Shown: positions 1-41,030 of the stretch, piece after piece
How the letters are laid out: each line of letters opens with the position of its first letter
How positions within the stretch are numbered: the first letter of the stretch is position 1
IMG/VR virus record: IMGVR_UViG_3300032083_001940
Location: 1-41,030 of that record
Length of the DNA stretch: 41,030 nt
Reading direction: 5' to 3' (one strand)
From: a virus
Translations under genes and position numbers: made by a program
Notes under the pieces: generated by a model
Told to the model about the DNA's origin: nothing
Databases searched by the model: none
What the model saw: the letters and a program-made list of their open reading frames with translations, nothing else

Positions 1-144
1 AGGCTAGGTTGTCTAGCAGTGTAACAATACCGAGTGGCTGGTTAGAACCAGTACCGGTCATGATACGATCGTCTTGGTCGTTAAACGCGTTACGAGCAGC
101 TCTCTGTAGAAGTAGAGGCATTAGGTTTGCACCAGCCTTTCTTT
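1..144. repeat. Terminal direct repeat, left copy
   Basis: Bases 1-144 match 40887-41030 with one difference at base 62 (G versus T, synonymous in the capsid gene). Both copies lie inside the capsid reading frame. This is what an assembler leaves when a circular or circularly permuted genome is cut at an arbitrary point; unit length would be 40,886 bp. A genuine 144-bp virion terminal repeat inside a capsid gene is much less likely. Confidence 0.9.
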
Positions 145-1276
145 CTAGCTTATCAGTAACTTTGAACAAGATGCTGTAGTCCTGTGGGATTAGCTCGTTC
201 TTGTTGAAGATATCAGCGATATCCGTAACAGTCAGAGTGTCACCTTCGTGGAACTCAGCAATTGATGGCTCCCAGTCGAAGTCACGTAGTGATAGACTAC
301 GAGCATCGCCTAGTGGCACAACTCTTACTCGTCCACCAAGCTTGTTTAGACGATCTCTTTCTTTCTTGATCTCATCCATCATGCGCTCAGGAACAAGAAG
401 ACCACCATCCCTATCAACTAGAGTAGAGAGTTCCTTATATTCCATTGCAAACTTGTTAGGATCTTGTAATGCTTTGTAAAACATTTCGTAGTCGCCCTCG
501 TCTTTGAGGTCGATCTCATGCTCGTTCGTGTGCTTTTGGGCACCGGTAGTGTCGACGGCTGTCTTAGGCTGAGGCTGACTCATCCACTTGTCAAACTCGT
601 CTAGTCGCTTTAGTTGAGTCTCCATGGAATTTAGTTTTTCCATTAGCTCATCGTTCATGTTCTTTTCGTCCATTTGCTTAACCTCTTGGGCTGCTGGTTT
701 GGTTTCTTTTAGTTCAGGGGCCGACTTCTGTTCGATCTCCGTTGGCTCCTTGTTGTCCACTTGGTCACTCATAGGTGTCTCCTGTTTGACAAGGGTTACT
801 TGGGCTAACGGATTCGCAGCCCTGGTTACTAGTGATATTTCTATCAACTCTATCTCGTTTATCTCTAGAACTCTCCTACCGTCGTCCATCTCAATGACGT
901 CCGTCTCCCGTGGGATAAACCCTATAGAGACTTCATTGAGGTGCCCCTCTCTGGCTTTGATAGCAATGTCCTGTGCACTAGGTGCTTGTGATATATCAGC
1001 CCTAAAGTATAGGCCGAACTGGCGCTCCTCCAGGTGTGTGATGGTACCCATTAGCTCTTTGGCATCATTATGGTTGTGCGAAGCAAACAGCCCGATGGGA
1101 CGGTCTTTAATGGCTTCTATGGTTGCGGTAAACGCACCGGGACGAATGACGTCTCCGTGAGAATCCACATTGTTAAACGCGGCAGCAAACCCTTCAATTG
1201 TCTCAATGCCCTTCGCAGCATTCTTCACAATTAGGTTGTCCGGAAGCTCCGTCGCCTTTTGTTGCTTGTCTTTCAT
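1..1276 (-). CDS. Prohead protease fused in frame to HK97-type major capsid protein (N-terminal part; continues at right edge)
   Basis: The frame is open from ATG 1276 to base 1 and resumes at the right edge, giving 571 residues on the circular molecule. Residues 1-168 resemble the HK97-family prohead protease: GLFASHNHND carries likely catalytic His67 and NEVSIGF the likely Ser117. After KQETP the capsid half begins at Met169 (ATG 772..770). It has a charged, coiled-coil-like scaffold (delta) stretch, residues about 169-260, and then the HK97 capsid core, with the family-typical DRDGGLLVP and TGTGSNQPLGI. No stop separates the halves. GGAG at 782..779, six bases before ATG 772, would allow the capsid half also to start alone. 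The start overlaps the portal gene by 74 bases, and a TAA just upstream fixes ATG 1276 as the first start. Fusion is seen directly; function is by family resemblance. Confidence 0.9.
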   Translation of the reverse strand, partial: MKDKQQKATELPDNLIVKNAAKGIETIEGFAAAFNNVDSHGDVIRPGAFTATIEAIKDRPIGLFASHNHNDAKELMGTITHLEERQFGLYFRADISQAPSAQDIAIKAREGHLNEVSIGFIPRETDVIEMDDGRRVLEINEIELIEISLVTRAANPLAQVTLVKQETPMSDQVDNKEPTEIEQKSAPELKETKPAAQEVKQMDEKNMNDELMEKLNSMETQLKRLDEFDKWMSQPQPKTAVDTTGAQKHTNEHEIDLKDEGDYEMFYKALQDPNKFAMEYKELSTLVDRDGGLLVPERMMDEIKKERDRLNKLGGRVRVVPLGDARSLSLRDFDWEPSIAEFHEGDTLTVTDIADIFNKNELIPQDYSILFKVTDKLERKAGANLMPLLLQRAARNAFNDQDDRIMTGTGSNQPLGIVTLLDNLA

Positions 1277-3551
1277 CTTTATACTCTCTTACTTGATCTA
1301 ATTCTTTCTGACTAAAGGCGTGAGGAGTATCTTCAGATGCTCCCTGTACTGTGATAGGTAACACGGTACTGCGGCAGTTGGGGTGTGCTGGCGGGTACTC
1401 CACTCCACCACCGGTATAGTCTAGGTTGATTTTGCTCTCCGTTGGGTCCCCTACGTTCACGAACGCATCGGTTAAAGCGACGATCTTTCCGTCTAGCTCA
1501 TTGCAAATACCACTAGTGCTCTGGTCCAGTATGGCTGACCACTGCATGGCCTGCACTACACCACTTGCCTGGTAGCCCTCTATGGCCCCCTTGTGTACGA
1601 ACCGCGTAGTCTCTGTGCGGGCAATCATGGTAGCGCGTACGTCGTCCCATTGGTCGGACAGTGCTCTAATGTGGTTTTTAGTCTCTCTGATGGACAGTCC
1701 TTCTTCTCTGGCGAGATCGAACACTCCCTGTAGCTTCTTATGGGAGACGGTGGCTACCCTATCTGCGAACTTATATACGGATGACCGTATGGCTCGGGTA
1801 ACGGCGTCGGAGTCTATGGCTATATCCACACCCACACCCTTAGCACTAGAGATGATAGATCTTCCCATGACATCTCCGAGGATCCCTTGGGCATCTTCGG
1901 CCAAGGCTTCCTTCCAGGCGTCGCTTAGCTCTTGTAGTTGGCGGCGCATGGACGACTCATCGAAGGACTTAAGGGAGTGCTTCTCCTTGGATCCGAGTAG
2001 TTTCTCTGCGTCTTTAAGTTGCTTTTGCAAATGCTTGCTGGCCATCCGCATCGTGCGGGCTAGGTACTTATCTGCTAGACTGGCTCTTGCCAGCGCTAGG
2101 CTTAGTTGTCTAGCCAGTATATCGTTAATCCCCTTAGAACTCACAGAATCGGCTTCTACGGGCATTTCGTCTTTAGTGGTACTTATAGTCTCTGAAGGAT
2201 CGTTTTGCCCGTCAAGGGCCTTTAAAACGCGTTTATCGATAAGATCCAAGAGATCCTCTGCATCTATCTCTACTTCATCACTGGATTCGGACTTCTCTTC
2301 CTCTTCGGGCTCTTCTTCCTCTGGCTCCTCTTCATCGGACCCAAACAAACCACTCATATCGGGGGCAAAGTCTCTTTTGAACTGATCTCCCTCGGGCACT
2401 TCGTCGAAACCACCACACAGTCTGGCTTCATTGAGTGTGATGACACCTGCTTGGAAGTCATCCCTAGCCCTCAAGGACTTAGCGTCTTGCTCCTCTTGTA
2501 GGGCCTCTACCCCAGACAAGTCAAAGCGGATACTGGTCAAGCCGTTCTCGGTCAGGTCCATATCCGCGTTGAGTACATCTTCAATCATTCCCATCAGGGG
2601 GCGAATGCACTGTGACCAAAACTGCTTATTGGCCTCACGCATGTTATTGTATGTACTGTTGCTCTGTCCACTAACTGATTGGTACACAGGAGGTGGGATA
2701 CGCAGGGCGGCTAGGATCTTGGATTCAAACAGGTTTACCTGATTAGTGAAGTCTAGTTGGTTAAGATCGTATCCGATGCTCTCTACCGTCATGTTACCGT
2801 CTAGTACGGCGGTATCCCCGAAGTTCTGACCCCGGTAGCGGGCGTTCCACATACGAACTAGGTCTTGCTTCTCTTCTCTGGTGATTTGCTCTGGTATGGT
2901 GATGGCAATGCCTGGCTGACCACGGTTCTGCAGGAGGCGCATCATGTGGTTAGTGGCTTCGGTATCTGCGTCGATACGTCGGGCAAGAGCCTTAAGGGGG
3001 CTAAAGCCGTAGAACTTGTTTATGGGGTCAATGAATGGGATACGTATGACATCCTGGGCCGGTAGGCGGAACTCCTTGTTCTCTACACGGTAGATGTACC
3101 CAGTGATGAACTCTCTGGGATCAGCGTCCACAGAAATGAGATCGGGCCGCAGTAACCGTAATTCAGTCACTCGACCCTTCCTGTCGCGTACCTTTTCAAT
3201 GTAGCCGATATCCCCTAGGTACATGTGCAGGATCAGCTCTTTAATAAACTGCTTCTGCGTATCAATGGGGTTAATGTGCTGTAGTAACTGTTGAATGGCG
3301 GACTTCGGTAGTGGCTCATCACTCTCTGGGTCGTAGGCCTTTAGTGGGGCTTCACATACTGCACTGGAAATCAACATCAAGGCGCCATTAACCGTTTCAT
3401 TCTGCTTGAATGCCTCGTCAACCCACGTCTCAAAGTCGCTCGTGCCGCCTAGGTTAAAGCGTTCACGGGCCGTTCCAATGAAGGAGGCTCCGGCTGGATC
3501 CTTAGCTGGTGGGCCAAATACGGCCTTGTAGATGTTATTCCATATACTCAT
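1203..3551 (-). CDS. Portal protein fused to a C-terminal MuF-like head protein domain
   Basis: This 782-residue protein is much longer than a usual HK97-family portal (about 400-500). Residues 1 to about 390 match the portal pattern, with GYIEKVRDRKGRVTELRLL, IPFIDPINKFYGFSPL and the family-typical YNNMREANKQFW. An acidic Glu-rich linker follows at about 400-435, then a helical region. Residues about 580-735 look like the phage Mu gpF minor-head domain: ARTETTRFVHKGA, WSAILDQSTSGIC and PPAHPNCRS. The tail ends Cys-rich (CEECCEGH). The portal forms the dodecameric DNA gate at one capsid vertex; MuF proteins are minor head proteins, sometimes packaged. The gene starts 3 bases after the terminase stop and overlaps the protease by 74 bases. 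Fusion is seen; roles come from family knowledge. Confidence 0.88.
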   Translation of the reverse strand: MSIWNNIYKAVFGPPAKDPAGASFIGTARERFNLGGTSDFETWVDEAFKQNETVNGALMLISSAVCEAPLKAYDPESDEPLPKSAIQQLLQHINPIDTQKQFIKELILHMYLGDIGYIEKVRDRKGRVTELRLLRPDLISVDADPREFITGYIYRVENKEFRLPAQDVIRIPFIDPINKFYGFSPLKALARRIDADTEATNHMMRLLQNRGQPGIAITIPEQITREEKQDLVRMWNARYRGQNFGDTAVLDGNMTVESIGYDLNQLDFTNQVNLFESKILAALRIPPPVYQSVSGQSNSTYNNMREANKQFWSQCIRPLMGMIEDVLNADMDLTENGLTSIRFDLSGVEALQEEQDAKSLRARDDFQAGVITLNEARLCGGFDEVPEGDQFKRDFAPDMSGLFGSDEEEPEEEEPEEEEKSESSDEVEIDAEDLLDLIDKRVLKALDGQNDPSETISTTKDEMPVEADSVSSKGINDILARQLSLALARASLADKYLARTMRMASKHLQKQLKDAEKLLGSKEKHSLKSFDESSMRRQLQELSDAWKEALAEDAQGILGDVMGRSIISSAKGVGVDIAIDSDAVTRAIRSSVYKFADRVATVSHKKLQGVFDLAREEGLSIRETKNHIRALSDQWDDVRATMIARTETTRFVHKGAIEGYQASGVVQAMQWSAILDQSTSGICNELDGKIVALTDAFVNVGDPTESKINLDYTGGGVEYPPAHPNCRSTVLPITVQGASEDTPHAFSQKELDQVREYKDERQATKGDGASGQPNCEECCEGH

Positions 3552-5448: not shown

Positions 5449-5464
5449 TAGCTAACTAGCTAAC
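5449..5464. repeat. Tandem 8-bp direct repeat TAGCTAAC
   Basis: Two perfect adjacent copies of TAGCTAAC (5449-5456 and 5457-5464) are followed by a partial TAAC. They also form a short inverted repeat, TAGCT-AACT-AGCTA. The repeat overlaps the last codons and stop of the DUF115-like gene. A terminase-binding (cos/pac) role is possible but is only inference from the location. Confidence 0.4.
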
Positions 5465-6913
5465 TAACTTCTCTACTAAGTGTGCTAACCTCCTTATATG
5501 GAAGCCAGCCATCTCCTCTATCAATTCTTTGTTATACCTGCCACCTCTCATAACCTGCCCCTCTTGTGTATAATGGTAGGGGTGTACCGCGTGCTGATAG
5601 GCTATGTTGTTTATATCCAGGTTGTGTAGATCTAGTTTATTGAAAGCCTCTGAATATTCTATTATCTTATTTAAGGCAGCTTCATAATAAGTACTATCAT
5701 CAGATCTACTATATGTTAGGGTGCGATTAACACCCTGACCGTGTATACGGGAAACAGTCCCCGAGGGAGGCTCGCTGAGCGCCCCCTCGACAGGTAGCGA
5801 AATTCCTATGCCGGGGACTAACTCTGGAGACTTCTGTCTCTCATTGGGCCAACGATATACTGGGATGTCCATCTTGGCAATCTGTATTTGAAGCCAATCT
5901 CTTTCCAGTATCCATGTTGTTCGTGTGCGTATTTTCTTTCCATTGACCCTTTCGTGGGTATTGTGTTCTTTATAACTAGCGTGCTTGAGGTCATCAGCGT
6001 ACTGCTTATTACCCTCAAAACAGAGGTCCAGGCCGATTAAGGTGGCACTGGCTGCGTTTACTTCTTTACAGAGTTCCAAGAACCCCGTTGAGACACCTAC
6101 ATGTCCATCGCGTATGTGGGTTAGGTCGTCTATCTTACTGAACATCTGCATGGATTGTATGCCACCGTTCAGAATTAGGTTGCCTCCGTGCTCTATCCAC
6201 TTATCAAATCCATCCGTATTAAGACCAGTATTGGTGAATAGTGGTAGGTCTTTGATGAATTCAGGGGTTAGATCCGCGAATACTGCCGTATATTGCGCGT
6301 CATATGGGTCAAATGAGTATGCTAAATCGGGCCTCATGCCCCACTTATTCAGCAGTCTCAGTCCGCTACCGGCTCCAATAACCACACAACCGGGGTCATC
6401 TATTAGGTCTTTTAGGAACTTCTTGTTCTTTCCGGCAGATGGTCCTCCACCTACGAACACTAAGTGTCTCCCATTTAGGAAGGTCTTTAGGTCTTCTACG
6501 GTGCCGACCTTCACGTCAGTGCGCTTTAGGATAGTTCCTAGGTTGTGGTAGATATTACTAAACGCCTGGTGTACTGGGTCGTAGTACATAGACCAGTTGT
6601 TCTCGAAGGATAGAGTGTCGTGTAGGAGTTTCGATCTGACACGGTCTACGGCTTCGGCTTCCTGCCTTCTAGGGTCGTCTTCTGGTAATTCATACACAGA
6701 TAGGTCCGGATGGGTGACCACCTGTAGCATGACATCCCCGTTGTACCCGATAAAGGACTTGGTGACTGGGCGCATATCATTGGGATCTAAGTTCCCTAGT
6801 ACGTGTGTTCCGCAGTCTGCGACCAGTGATCCTGGGTTGTTAGGGTCAGCCGTCAGTATAATGGCTGCTGGTCGTGTATGACAATTAATTCTACGCATTT
6901 TGCCCTGTATCAT
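5456..6913 (-). CDS. DUF115/MAF-like protein (putative glycosyltransferase of the 6-hydroxymethylpterin pyrophosphokinase MptE-like fold)
   Basis: A 485-residue protein. The central region has the DUF115 signature: LVFVGGGPSAGKNKKFL (about 150-166), then VIGAGSGLRLLNKWGMRPDL followed by SFDPYD, and later ATLIGLDLCFEGNKQYADDL (about 288-307), which corresponds to the GxDLAyxxxxxHA motif of MAF proteins. In bacteria MAF proteins transfer nonulosonic acids to flagellin; archaeal MptE is a pterin kinase. Which activity this one has cannot be told. The start overlaps the upstream gene by four bases (ATGA), suggesting translational coupling. It lies between the serine protease cluster and terS, apart from recognisable tail-fibre genes. 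A second start, ATG six codons in, is possible. The family call is fairly firm; the role is open. Confidence 0.68.
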   Translation of the reverse strand: MIQGKMRRINCHTRPAAIILTADPNNPGSLVADCGTHVLGNLDPNDMRPVTKSFIGYNGDVMLQVVTHPDLSVYELPEDDPRRQEAEAVDRVRSKLLHDTLSFENNWSMYYDPVHQAFSNIYHNLGTILKRTDVKVGTVEDLKTFLNGRHLVFVGGGPSAGKNKKFLKDLIDDPGCVVIGAGSGLRLLNKWGMRPDLAYSFDPYDAQYTAVFADLTPEFIKDLPLFTNTGLNTDGFDKWIEHGGNLILNGGIQSMQMFSKIDDLTHIRDGHVGVSTGFLELCKEVNAASATLIGLDLCFEGNKQYADDLKHASYKEHNTHERVNGKKIRTRTTWILERDWLQIQIAKMDIPVYRWPNERQKSPELVPGIGISLPVEGALSEPPSGTVSRIHGQGVNRTLTYSRSDDSTYYEAALNKIIEYSEAFNKLDLHNLDINNIAYQHAVHPYHYTQEGQVMRGGRYNKELIEEMAGFHIRRLAHLVEKLVS

Positions 6914-7182: not shown

Positions 7183-7914
7183 TTACTCGGCCAGGGGAGC
7201 CGAGGATCCGCCCCTTATCCTGTTGTACTCGTCGGGGATCACTTCTTTAATCAGCACATCTAAATAGAAGGCTGGAACCACTAGGGTAACTTTCTGTGAA
7301 CCGGCGAATAAGATTCCAATGACAGTGCCGGTCTCATCTAATACTGGACTGCCGCTGGCCCCTCCTTGTGCTTCTAGGTCAGTGGTTATGGCCCGCAGGT
7401 TCCACTTGGGTGCCTGGTTCCATTCCTTATGGCTCGTGTTCATAGGGTATATCATGCCTACAACGCCCGCAGACGTCGCTTCTACCTCATAGGCAGGGTA
7501 TCCTACCGTGACGACTGAAGATCCTCTTAGAGGCATCATAACGTCGTATCTGAGCGATTGAGTAATAATACCAGGAGCTATGCGGATAATGGCCAAATCG
7601 TGTGCTTCGTTGCTAGCGATTACTGCACCCTCTACCATGTGGTTGTTCCGAGTCTGCACAAACACATAAGTCTCGGTATTGGATGTATGTCCATCTCGCA
7701 CGACGTGAAAGTTTGTCACAATCAGCGTCTCACTAATGGAAAATCCAGTACCATAGGCGCCGTCTGTTCGGTGAACAGTAACGACTGAGTCGGTAATGGC
7801 TTGGTCGTCGATCATGCTTACCATGGCATGATCCCGAGCCACATCCTGTAGAGTGGGTGCCCCCACGAATAATGCGCCAGCTATCAGCAGCGCTCCTAGT
7901 AACTTTTTAAACAT
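7183..7914 (-). CDS. Signal-peptide trypsin-like serine protease (HtrA/DegP-type peptidase domain)
   Basis: A 243-residue protein. Residues 1-19 (MFKKLLGALLIAGALFVGA) are a typical signal peptide or membrane anchor, so the protease should act outside the cytoplasm. The chymotrypsin-fold catalytic triad is visible: His70 in TNFHVV, Asp106 in AHDLAIIRI and Ser187 in GGASGSPV. The size fits a single peptidase domain without a PDZ domain. ATG 7914 follows a strong TAGGAGGG site overlapping the stop of the preceding small gene. HtrA-type proteases degrade or process envelope proteins; a phage copy might help lysis, entry or superinfection control, all inference. It is distinct from the cytoplasmic prohead protease. 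Domain call is firm, biological role unknown. Confidence 0.85.
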   Translation of the reverse strand: MFKKLLGALLIAGALFVGAPTLQDVARDHAMVSMIDDQAITDSVVTVHRTDGAYGTGFSISETLIVTNFHVVRDGHTSNTETYVFVQTRNNHMVEGAVIASNEAHDLAIIRIAPGIITQSLRYDVMMPLRGSSVVTVGYPAYEVEATSAGVVGMIYPMNTSHKEWNQAPKWNLRAITTDLEAQGGASGSPVLDETGTVIGILFAGSQKVTLVVPAFYLDVLIKEVIPDEYNRIRGGSSAPLAE

Positions 7915-7923
7915 GAATCCCTC

Positions 7924-8106
7924 CTAGAATTCAATGATGCCCTGTAAATCAGTGTCGTCTAGCTCGTCATCATAAAGGGCTAGGTAGAGTAATGTGCTCT
8001 CTAAAACGTCCAAAAGACGTGCACATTGAGTGTCTTTTTCCATCTTATGGTAGGCGTCTGCCGCTACAAGTAAGGCAATTCTAAGGTGTTTGTGTACCGG
8101 GTCCAT
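7924..8106 (-). CDS. Hypothetical protein, 60 residues
   Basis: A short helical acidic protein (MDPVHKHLRIALLVAADAYH at the start, acidic end YDDELDDTDLQ). I chose ATG 8106 over the in-frame upstream ATG 8175 because AAGGAG lies seven bases before it. The upstream start would also overlap the ThyX-like gene by 95 bases rather than 26. Function not recognised. It lies between the ThyX-like gene and the secreted protease and is probably translated from the same message. Confidence 0.6.
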   Translation of the reverse strand: MDPVHKHLRIALLVAADAYHKMEKDTQCARLLDVLESTLLYLALYDDELDDTDLQGIIEF

Positions 8107-9610
8107 TAAGAATCTCCTTCTTTGTGCGTCTCTCTGCGCTACGCTGCTCCTGATCCAGTCGTCCCAATCCCCCATCGTCGTACTCCATAAAGCGAAAAAA
8201 TAGTTTAAAATCGGGATGTACCTCTACTACCCTGCGTACTAAATCCTGTGCAGTGCGTCTGTAGCCGATATGCCCCTGAGGTTGTGACCGTAATTCACAC
8301 AACCACTGTAAGGCTCGAAGGTTCATGTGTACGTACCACCGTACCCTAAATCCCATGGGCACTACATATTGTGCCGCCTTTGGGCATAGTTCACTAAGGG
8401 TGTAGTACGACATGCGGGCCTTTTCCATGGCCATAACGAACTGATCAGTCAGTCCGGCAGCCTCTATGTCAGCAGGAACGCTGTACCCGTGCTTGGGTGT
8501 TAAAGTTTGTCTGCCCTGCGTAAGGATCCTATGTCTTTGTAGATCCCTGTAACACCCGAAATCAGATGTAATCTCGAAGGTGTAGTTGGCCACTTCTAGC
8601 CCTCTTGGACTCTTATGCCGCCTGTTAGTTCTTCCAGTCACTGATGCCCGCAGTATATCGCGGCAATGTAATGTGTGTGCTGGGCGTAAGTCGTCTAGTG
8701 TAGAGCTGCTATTCTCGTATCGTAGGGCCGCCGCTACCTTAAAGGGGGCGTCCGGGTCGTAGTCCACTAATCTAACGTTACTTTCGGTTTCAGTCCTACC
8801 AATGGGGCAGTAGTACTTCAGCGCGTATCTTACACTCTTCAGGTACTTTAGGTGCGCCTTGGTGTGTCTATGTTCCTTATCTCCTTTCCTTACAAAGGAG
8901 GGGATTACTTGCGATAATTGCTCATGTACATGGGGTGCCAGATCTTGGCACTCCCTCAGTTCACTTGCGTGAAGCTTAGTACACAAACCCTCAAAGAATC
9001 TACCATTGCCGTACACGCCCATGTTCGTCGTTGTACTGGCGGGCAGGAGACCCCTGAGAGAATCTAACGCTCTAGCCTTCATACTTGCGCTGTATGCGCG
9101 TTTCGAGCCTTCCCCTTGGTAAGGGTACTGCTCATTGAGATATGCCATTAGCGGGCCTTTAAGGGCCGTATACGTGGAAAACAGCATATCGCATGTATCT
9201 TCGTACAGATCAGCCCCGTTGCTCTGCATTAGCATGGGCTCTCTGATATATCGGTACTTACCGTCCACCTTGTCATCGAATTCTATGTATCTAGTCGACT
9301 TCTCTAGTGGGGAACCACCTATCCGGCAGTCTTGTATCTCTTTAGCGGCTAACATGGAGATGTTCTCTAGGGCGAGGTGTGCTCCTCCCAGTTCTCCTAT
9401 GCTGTCATCTCCATAACCGTCTAGTATGCGGTCATAGAAGTCAGATGCCTGCTCTTCTCCGTATTCTTCTGCTAATAGCTGCTTAATACTCTTCTTAGTG
9501 CGGCTATACTTACTGAATAATGCCCCTTTCACTACTTCGGGTAGGTTAGTTAGGCAGAATACATCATTACTTATACTGGTCACCAGGTCTTCTACCCTGG
9601 TGTTCTTCAC
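8081..9610 (-). CDS. thyX: Double-length ThyX-family protein (putative FAD-dependent thymidylate synthase)
   Basis: At 509 residues this is about twice the usual ThyX (about 220-250). The second half carries QRHRILTQGRQ (His360 and neighbours), matching the RHRxxSxxxxSxR signature, and later YVVPMGFRVRWYVHMNLRAL, the C-terminal substrate region. The first half repeats the layout in degenerate form: STRYIEFD where the RHR motif would be, then LRGLLPASTTTNMGVYGNGR. So it appears to be two ThyX-like domains in tandem, with only the second keeping the classical motif. ThyX makes dTMP from dUMP using folate, FAD and NADPH. It overlaps the dUTPase gene by four bases (ATGA), and dUTPase supplies dUMP. 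Activity is inferred. Confidence 0.82.
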   Translation of the reverse strand: MKNTRVEDLVTSISNDVFCLTNLPEVVKGALFSKYSRTKKSIKQLLAEEYGEEQASDFYDRILDGYGDDSIGELGGAHLALENISMLAAKEIQDCRIGGSPLEKSTRYIEFDDKVDGKYRYIREPMLMQSNGADLYEDTCDMLFSTYTALKGPLMAYLNEQYPYQGEGSKRAYSASMKARALDSLRGLLPASTTTNMGVYGNGRFFEGLCTKLHASELRECQDLAPHVHEQLSQVIPSFVRKGDKEHRHTKAHLKYLKSVRYALKYYCPIGRTETESNVRLVDYDPDAPFKVAAALRYENSSSTLDDLRPAHTLHCRDILRASVTGRTNRRHKSPRGLEVANYTFEITSDFGCYRDLQRHRILTQGRQTLTPKHGYSVPADIEAAGLTDQFVMAMEKARMSYYTLSELCPKAAQYVVPMGFRVRWYVHMNLRALQWLCELRSQPQGHIGYRRTAQDLVRRVVEVHPDFKLFFRFMEYDDGGLGRLDQEQRSAERRTKKEILNGPGTQTP

Positions 9611-40446: not shown

Positions 40447-41030
40447 TTAAGTAATCTCAATACGGGCAAAAGCTTTCTTGTCCATTGGGACTCCGTCGTA
40501 GGCGAAGTTGATCCTAACGGCTACTTTCTTCTCATCGAAGTAACGGCTTCTGTCGATGTCGACTCTGTTTTCCTCGTCAACTACCATCAAGTACTCGCCT
40601 AGGTCGCCGAATACGATGGGTGTTTCACCGCTGGCGTTACCGTCAGCTAATGATTTTGTTTCTATCACGGGTGCACCGAGAAGAGTAGGTGGCAGGCCAG
40701 CTGCTACAGGTCGGTTCCAGATAGGTAGATTCTGTGAATCTTTAAGTTTCATAACGGTTGCAATCGCATCCTTGTGCATGTACCATGCGCCAGAATGTCT
40801 GTACTCTTCGTCTAGCTTCATCATGCAGTCTACGAGTGAGTCGTAGTCTAGGCCAGATGCTAGGGAAGTTACGTTAACCGTGTTAAAGGCTAGGTTGTCT
40901 AGCAGTGTAACAATACCGAGTGGCTGGTTAGAACCAGTACCGGTCATTATACGATCGTCTTGGTCGTTAAACGCGTTACGAGCAGCTCTCTGTAGAAGTA
41001 GAGGCATTAGGTTTGCACCAGCCTTTCTTT
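40447..41030 (-). CDS. Major capsid protein, C-terminal part of the protease-capsid fusion
   Basis: This is the C-terminal portion of the HK97-fold capsid protein whose N-terminus lies at 1-1276. Bases 40887-41030 duplicate 1-144, so the join is unambiguous; the one difference (base 62 G, base 40948 T) is synonymous (ATC/ATA, Ile). The segment contains TGTGSNQPLGIV, a family-typical motif, and later the P-domain-like stretch with LPIWNRPVAAG and LLGAPVIET. It ends ARIEIT, stop at 40449..40447. Downstream, after a 105-base spacer, is the probable decoration protein. An internal ATG at 41007 begins MPLLLQ, but the frame is open well upstream, so this is not the true start. Confidence 0.93.
   Translation of the reverse strand, partial: RKAGANLMPLLLQRAARNAFNDQDDRIMTGTGSNQPLGIVTLLDNLAFNTVNVTSLASGLDYDSLVDCMMKLDEEYRHSGAWYMHKDAIATVMKLKDSQNLPIWNRPVAAGLPPTLLGAPVIETKSLADGNASGETPIVFGDLGEYLMVVDEENRVDIDRSRYFDEKKVAVRINFAYDGVPMDKKAFARIEIT
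40887..41030. repeat. Terminal direct repeat, right copy
   Basis: Second copy of the end overlap (see left copy at 1-144). The mismatch at 40948 suggests either a read error or two co-existing variants in the sampled population. Confidence 0.9.

Follow-up and report, generated by a model that had tools for sequence, protein, structure and literature searches.

Introduction

Nested genes that encode a protease-scaffold protein and, in the same frame, the scaffold alone are known from phage lambda (C/Nu3) and the herpesviruses (UL26/UL26.5), where only a few of the scaffolds carry the protease. UL26.5 is made from its own transcript, and in both systems the major capsid protein (MCP) is encoded by a separate gene. 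Salmonella phage Gifsy-2 has a tripartite capsid gene whose protease is ClpP-like, of a class other than S78. This gene was described by Effantin et al. (2010), as cited in PMC3121763. In Pseudomonas phage MD8, gene 5 (gp5) encodes the protease, the scaffold and the MCP in one gene, and an internal start is not described in the available sections of that account (PMC8508860). In the thaumarchaeal proviruses NCAV2-Pro1 and NitIsl-Pro1, the MCP is fused to a prohead protease of the S78 family, and the available portion of the corresponding paper (PMC6563490) does not discuss an internal start. The original prediction on the locus studied here had contrasted it with HK97, in which the protease and the capsid protein are products of separate genes; this agrees with PMC8508860, where the two genes are adjacent.

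How the amount of protease in each prohead of tailed phages is controlled is an open assembly question. A protease-capsid fusion seems to force a 1:1 ratio of the two, and the phages could escape this ratio through an internal start, if one is conserved. Here, we analyzed a viral sequence of 41,030 nucleotides (IMG/VR record IMGVR_UViG_3300032083_001940; hereafter the window) that contains such a fusion, and compared it with other fusion genes.

Results

The protease, putative scaffold and capsid regions share one frame

The ORF listing showed a stop-free minus-strand frame of 425 aa from ATG 1276 to position 2, and a frame of 193 aa on the same strand that resumes at 41028 and reaches its stop at 40447 (Table 1). 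The two ends of the window have a 144-bp repeat in common (143 of 144 positions identical), and joining the ends closed the molecule to a ring of 40,886 bp. In this ring, the two pieces form one minus-strand frame of 571 codons encoding 571 aa; the second piece repeats the final 47 codons of the first. The 571-aa protein was identical with either repeat copy, and thus the single mismatch in the repeat is synonymous. The gene had originally been placed at 1-1276. Its start and the domain transition are indeed inside this span, but the gene is not confined to it because the last 193 codons lie at 40447-41028.

Table 1. Features of the protease-scaffold-MCP locus in the window.
Feature	Position	Strand	Evidence
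Codons 1-425 of protease-scaffold-MCP gene, from ATG 1276	1..1276	-	Stop-free frame, domains
Last 193 codons and stop of protease-scaffold-MCP gene	40447..41028	-	Open frame, ring closure, Phage_capsid (E 3.3e-33)
Peptidase_S78 prohead protease domain, residues 21-166	779..1216	-	Pfam, alignments, structure model
Putative scaffold (delta-like) region, residues 169-289, helix 204-233	410..772	-	Position between domains, AlphaFold, TIGR01554 match from residue 186
AGGAG, putative Shine-Dalgarno site of internal start	779..783	-	-5.7 kcal/mol, 6-nt spacing; position conserved across fusions
Internal in-frame ATG, residue 169, proposed start of 403-aa scaffold-MCP	770..772	-	Shine-Dalgarno scan, comparison, disordered linker 162-203
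Portal gene, 782 aa (Phage_portal, E 1.8e-56; Phage_Mu_F, E 4.2e-14)	1203..3551	-	ORF, Pfam
Terminal repeat copy 1 (assembly overlap, circular or permuted genome)	1..144	.	143/144 identical to 40887-41030
Terminal repeat copy 2	40887..41030	.	143/144 identical to 1..144

The N-terminal part of the product matched Peptidase_S78 in Pfam with an E value of 3.7e-23, and it scored 90 bits against the HK97-type prohead protease model TIGR01543 (cut-off 59). Phage_capsid was matched on both gene pieces, and the HK97-type MCP model TIGR01554 spanned the junction between them in a single alignment (residues 186-569, E 1.6e-56, 192 bits against a cut-off of 27.5). The two residues named beforehand in the protease domain, H67 and S117, proved invariant in both the protease alignment and the fusion alignment, and E146 was invariant in the fusion alignment. 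In an AlphaFold model of the fusion built from 15 sequences, the protease was confident at approximately residues 23-161, residues 162-203 were modelled as disordered, and a helix was placed at 204-233; the nearest solved folds to the modelled protease were those of the herpesvirus proteases and T4 gp21. The region between the protease and the MCP, about 120 residues long and disordered then helical in the model, is a putative scaffold. Taken together, these results show that the locus is a tripartite capsid gene of a tailed phage, whose single frame encodes an S78 serine protease, a putative scaffold and an HK97-fold MCP; the prediction that the three lie in one gene, with no stop separating protease from capsid, was right. 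In addition, the first 130 residues of PDB entry 9sz9_AA ('Major capsid protein', 516 aa) aligned weakly with the S78 protease of the window (E 0.094), which raises the possibility that this structure is of a capsid encoded by a fused gene.

The portal gene lies upstream of the fusion gene and runs 74 nt into it. It, too, is a fusion, of a portal and a Mu gpF-like minor capsid domain, so that two consecutive fused genes are found in the head module. Elsewhere on the minus strand, we observed a trypsin-like serine protease whose N-terminus appears to carry a signal or membrane segment (7183-7914; Trypsin_2, E 5.1e-24), and, between the terminase region and this gene, a 485-aa MptE-like (6-hydroxymethylpterin diphosphokinase-like) protein (5456-6913). 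A 509-aa ThyX-type thymidylate synthase frame (8081-9610, minus strand) has two Thy1 matches and is about twice the usual length, which suggests a tandem or duplicated ThyX.

A candidate internal start follows the protease in the window

The fusion gene contains, after the protease, an in-frame internal start with its own putative ribosome-binding site. The sequence upstream of ATG 772 reads ACAGGAGACACCT-ATG, so the GGAG that had been noticed six bases ahead of this codon is present, as part of an AGGAG with a 6-nt gap. In a simple contiguous-pairing model, which was used for all Shine-Dalgarno (SD) energies given here, this was the best SD site among the in-frame starts of the gene, and it was on a par with the SD sites that precede other genes in the window. 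For ATG 1276, the first start, there was no contiguous SD match; this codon is located within the last part of the portal gene. Local RNA structure was stronger at the internal start (-12.4 kcal/mol) than at ATG 1276 (-3.4 kcal/mol), which argues against the long form being the minority product. When the window was considered alone, the site at ATG 772 was not above chance, as synonymous shuffles were equal or better in 47% of trials (P 0.47). Because the site is weak by itself, the internal start was tested across fusion genes.

Protease-capsid fusions are known but uncommon

The fusion of a prohead protease to the MCP is an uncommon layout but not a new one, as shown by an NCBIfam model and by published examples. 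The NCBIfam model, NF045541 (scaf_prot_MCP2), bears the name 'prohead protease/major capsid protein fusion protein', and the description of PHROG 4523 reads 'major head and protease protein'. Scores above the NF045541 cut-off were obtained in 24 of 398 Pseudomonadota genomes, as well as in the controls Caulobacter vibrioides and Synechococcus elongatus. The window protein scored 54 bits against this model, below the cut-off of 525 (E 1.1e-14), and matched it over residues 62-232 only, in the protease-scaffold part.

Sweeps with PF04586 for S78 proteases combined with a capsid domain, a check that the original prediction had proposed, found S78 plus HK97-fold fusions like that of the window in Pseudomonadota, in its class Alphaproteobacteria and in IMG/VR. 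Some of these (L172-L183) are on contigs of ~15-21 kb, many from isolate genomes, that resemble gene transfer agent (GTA) clusters, and the solved capsid that lies closest to one of them (L175) comes from a GTA, of the Rcc01687 type (6tba/6tb9). Within one family on short viral contigs (~14-19 kb), some members (L159-L162) have the protease and the MCP fused, and others (L163-L165) have them apart, in different frames; this family is a natural set for dating the fusion.

Queries with the first part of the fusion, the portal and the whole fusion detected no near kin of the window phage in IMG/VR or GTDB. Among the terminase relatives, no locus had the fusion, and their head genes were separate or unrecognised. 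No S78 match was found in the phylum of a Lentisphaerae genome. In the annotated phage records with similar proteases that were opened, the protease and the MCP are in separate genes. The tblastn result for Salmonella phage 118970_sal3 suggested a fusion, but its annotated genes are separate and in the same frame.

A candidate internal start is conserved across fusion genes

We assembled 54 S78-MCP fusion frames, that of the window and 53 others, drawn mainly from Pseudomonadota and chosen for a protease and a long frame rather than for an internal start. Four further fusions without a clear anchor motif were excluded from the statistics, and four long S78 frames (L146, L147, L151 and L199) were excluded after domain checks since they were not fusions. 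The tested region extended from 14 to 75 codons past E-[IV]-S-[LV], the final conserved motif of the protease, and a site was counted when an in-frame ATG had an SD pairing of -4 kcal/mol or lower. Such a site was found after the protease in 47 of the 54 fusions, compared to an expectation of 6.5 derived from equally long stretches elsewhere in these genes, while the other two frames of the linkers had 3 and 0. The 54 frames are not fully independent; we thus also used a set of 23 representatives less than 50% identical to each other, and 20 of them had the site (3.1 expected). When GTG and TTG were permitted as well, the count was 50/54 (14.3 expected), and the remaining four fusions had no good internal site.

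Synonymous shuffling predicted 27.9 sites in the 54 frames and 10.6 in the 23 representatives, and no simulated draw reached the observed counts. Since the observed counts exceed this expectation, the codon choice contributes to the site as well as the peptide (K-E-x-x-M and similar). The KQETPM-SD of the window aligned with KETPPM-EN, KETNYM-EN and KENSNM-EP of relatives that are about 25% identical to it. Furthermore, in three split relatives of the fused family, the separate MCP starts directly behind the protease, with a GAGGA. Candidate starts past the protease are also present in ClpP-type fusions, which are outside the statistics: MD8 has AGGAG, a 9-nt gap and an ATG at residue 220, after the protease, as well as further sites within the protease. 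Members of NF045541 likewise carry internal SD-ATG sites.

The idea that the internal site is always stronger than the first start was not generally true. The internal SD was the stronger one in 32 of the 54 fusions, and of the 23 lineages below 50% identity, 13 had the stronger SD at the internal site and 9 at the first start, with a tie in 1 (P = 0.057). The search of the open-access literature found no published account of an internal start in such fusion genes, and as far as the searched papers show, this test is new. These results collectively indicate that a candidate internal start is conserved just past the protease in nearly all compared fusions, and this comparison of sequences strongly supports the proposal that two products are made from one gene.

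Discussion

Most probably, the gene makes two nested products, protease-scaffold-MCP and scaffold-MCP, with the tethered protease co-assembling. Ribosomes would initiate at two sites: ATG 1276, without a clear SD and within the end of the portal gene, would give the full 571-aa protein, and ATG 772, preceded by AGGAG, would give a scaffold-MCP of 403 aa that corresponds to the usual capsid precursor of the HK97 type. The scaffold and capsid parts are common to both products, and for this reason the long form is expected to co-assemble and to bring its tethered protease into the prohead, where the protease would remove the scaffold and free itself. We infer the use of both starts, a minor share for the long form and its co-assembly; a minority long form fits the starts of the window but is not a general rule across the fusions. 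The built-in ratio control that had been proposed for this gene is upheld in part. The window agrees with it, with -5.7 kcal/mol at the internal site and no SD at the first start, but the internal site is stronger in too few of the other fusions for site strengths to predict a ratio consistently, and control by a tethered protease is plausible but unproven. It is also probable that an internal start after the protease is a general and selected feature of fusion genes with any protease class, which would encode a nested pair whose dosage is set by two competing starts.

It could be argued that the gene yields a single polyprotein, in which only the full-length form is made, every MCP carries a protease that is later self-cut, and the internal Met and the purine-rich codons are incidental. 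The published account of such a gene does give one propeptide (PMC9855967, citing MD8), and the window's own site is at chance level given its amino acids. However, this leaves the conserved internal sites unexplained: they far exceed expectation in the linkers and are almost absent from the other frames, and codon choice contributes beyond the amino acids. In addition, several hundred tethered proteases per prohead would presumably be a heavy load, and overall we regard a single polyprotein as unlikely.

Alternatively, the fusion may be recent and due to the loss of a stop codon, the internal start being the old MCP start from which selection has gone. One family does hold both fused and split forms, and the internal starts sit at the positions where the split MCPs start. 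A relic is expected to decay, whereas the site was retained in 20 of the 23 lineages and the SD-favouring codons were above the synonymous expectation; because the site is conserved across lineages less than 50% identical, we consider this origin very unlikely. It is hardly credible that the fusion was made by the joining of contig ends, with separate genes in the true genome. The 144-bp overlap does contain one mismatch, but the join falls inside the MCP fold, where TIGR01554 aligns across it in one stretch, and the transition from protease through scaffold to capsid lies wholly within 1-1276, away from the junction, and so is independent of ring closure. For the protease-to-capsid join, an assembly artefact is thus excluded.

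If two nested products are indeed made, lambda, the herpesviruses and the fused-capsid phages would come under a single nested-gene logic, and fusion genes would yield a nested pair, not one propeptide as has been written. Annotation and proteomics should then expect two products from these genes, which are common in Pseudomonadota genomes.

Among the fusions compared here, those in Pseudomonadota, largely Alphaproteobacteria, and on viral contigs (L148-L150, L160-L162, L172-L183 and L190-L193) have the domain order of the window, frames of 506-607 codons and, like the window, a linker motif with an internal SD-ATG. The aligned members are only 22-26% identical to the window protein, and their viral contigs, many of which come from isolates, are of ~15-21 kb and thereby short compared to the 41-kb phage of the window. 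NF045541 proteins also combine the prohead protease and the MCP, but their capsid part was missed by the HK97-type profile that we built. MD8 gp5 and Gifsy-2 resemble the window in having protease, scaffold and MCP in one gene, whereas the MD8 protease is ClpP-like and of a different class from the S78 protease of the window; NCAV2-Pro1 and NitIsl-Pro1 share its S78-MCP fusion and are archaeal.

HK97 gp4 and gp5 belong to the same protease (TIGR01543) and capsid (TIGR01554) families as the window, and the scaffold (delta domain) of gp5 is likewise the N-terminal part of the capsid protein; unlike in HK97, the protease and the MCP of the window are in one continuous frame and not in two genes. 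The window is similar to the lambda C/Nu3 type in having an in-frame internal start with a putative SD after the protease, and to the herpesvirus UL26 system in its modelled protease fold, which is nearest to the herpesvirus proteases. It differs from C/Nu3 and UL26/UL26.5 in that the MCP is within the same frame and would be part of both proposed nested products.
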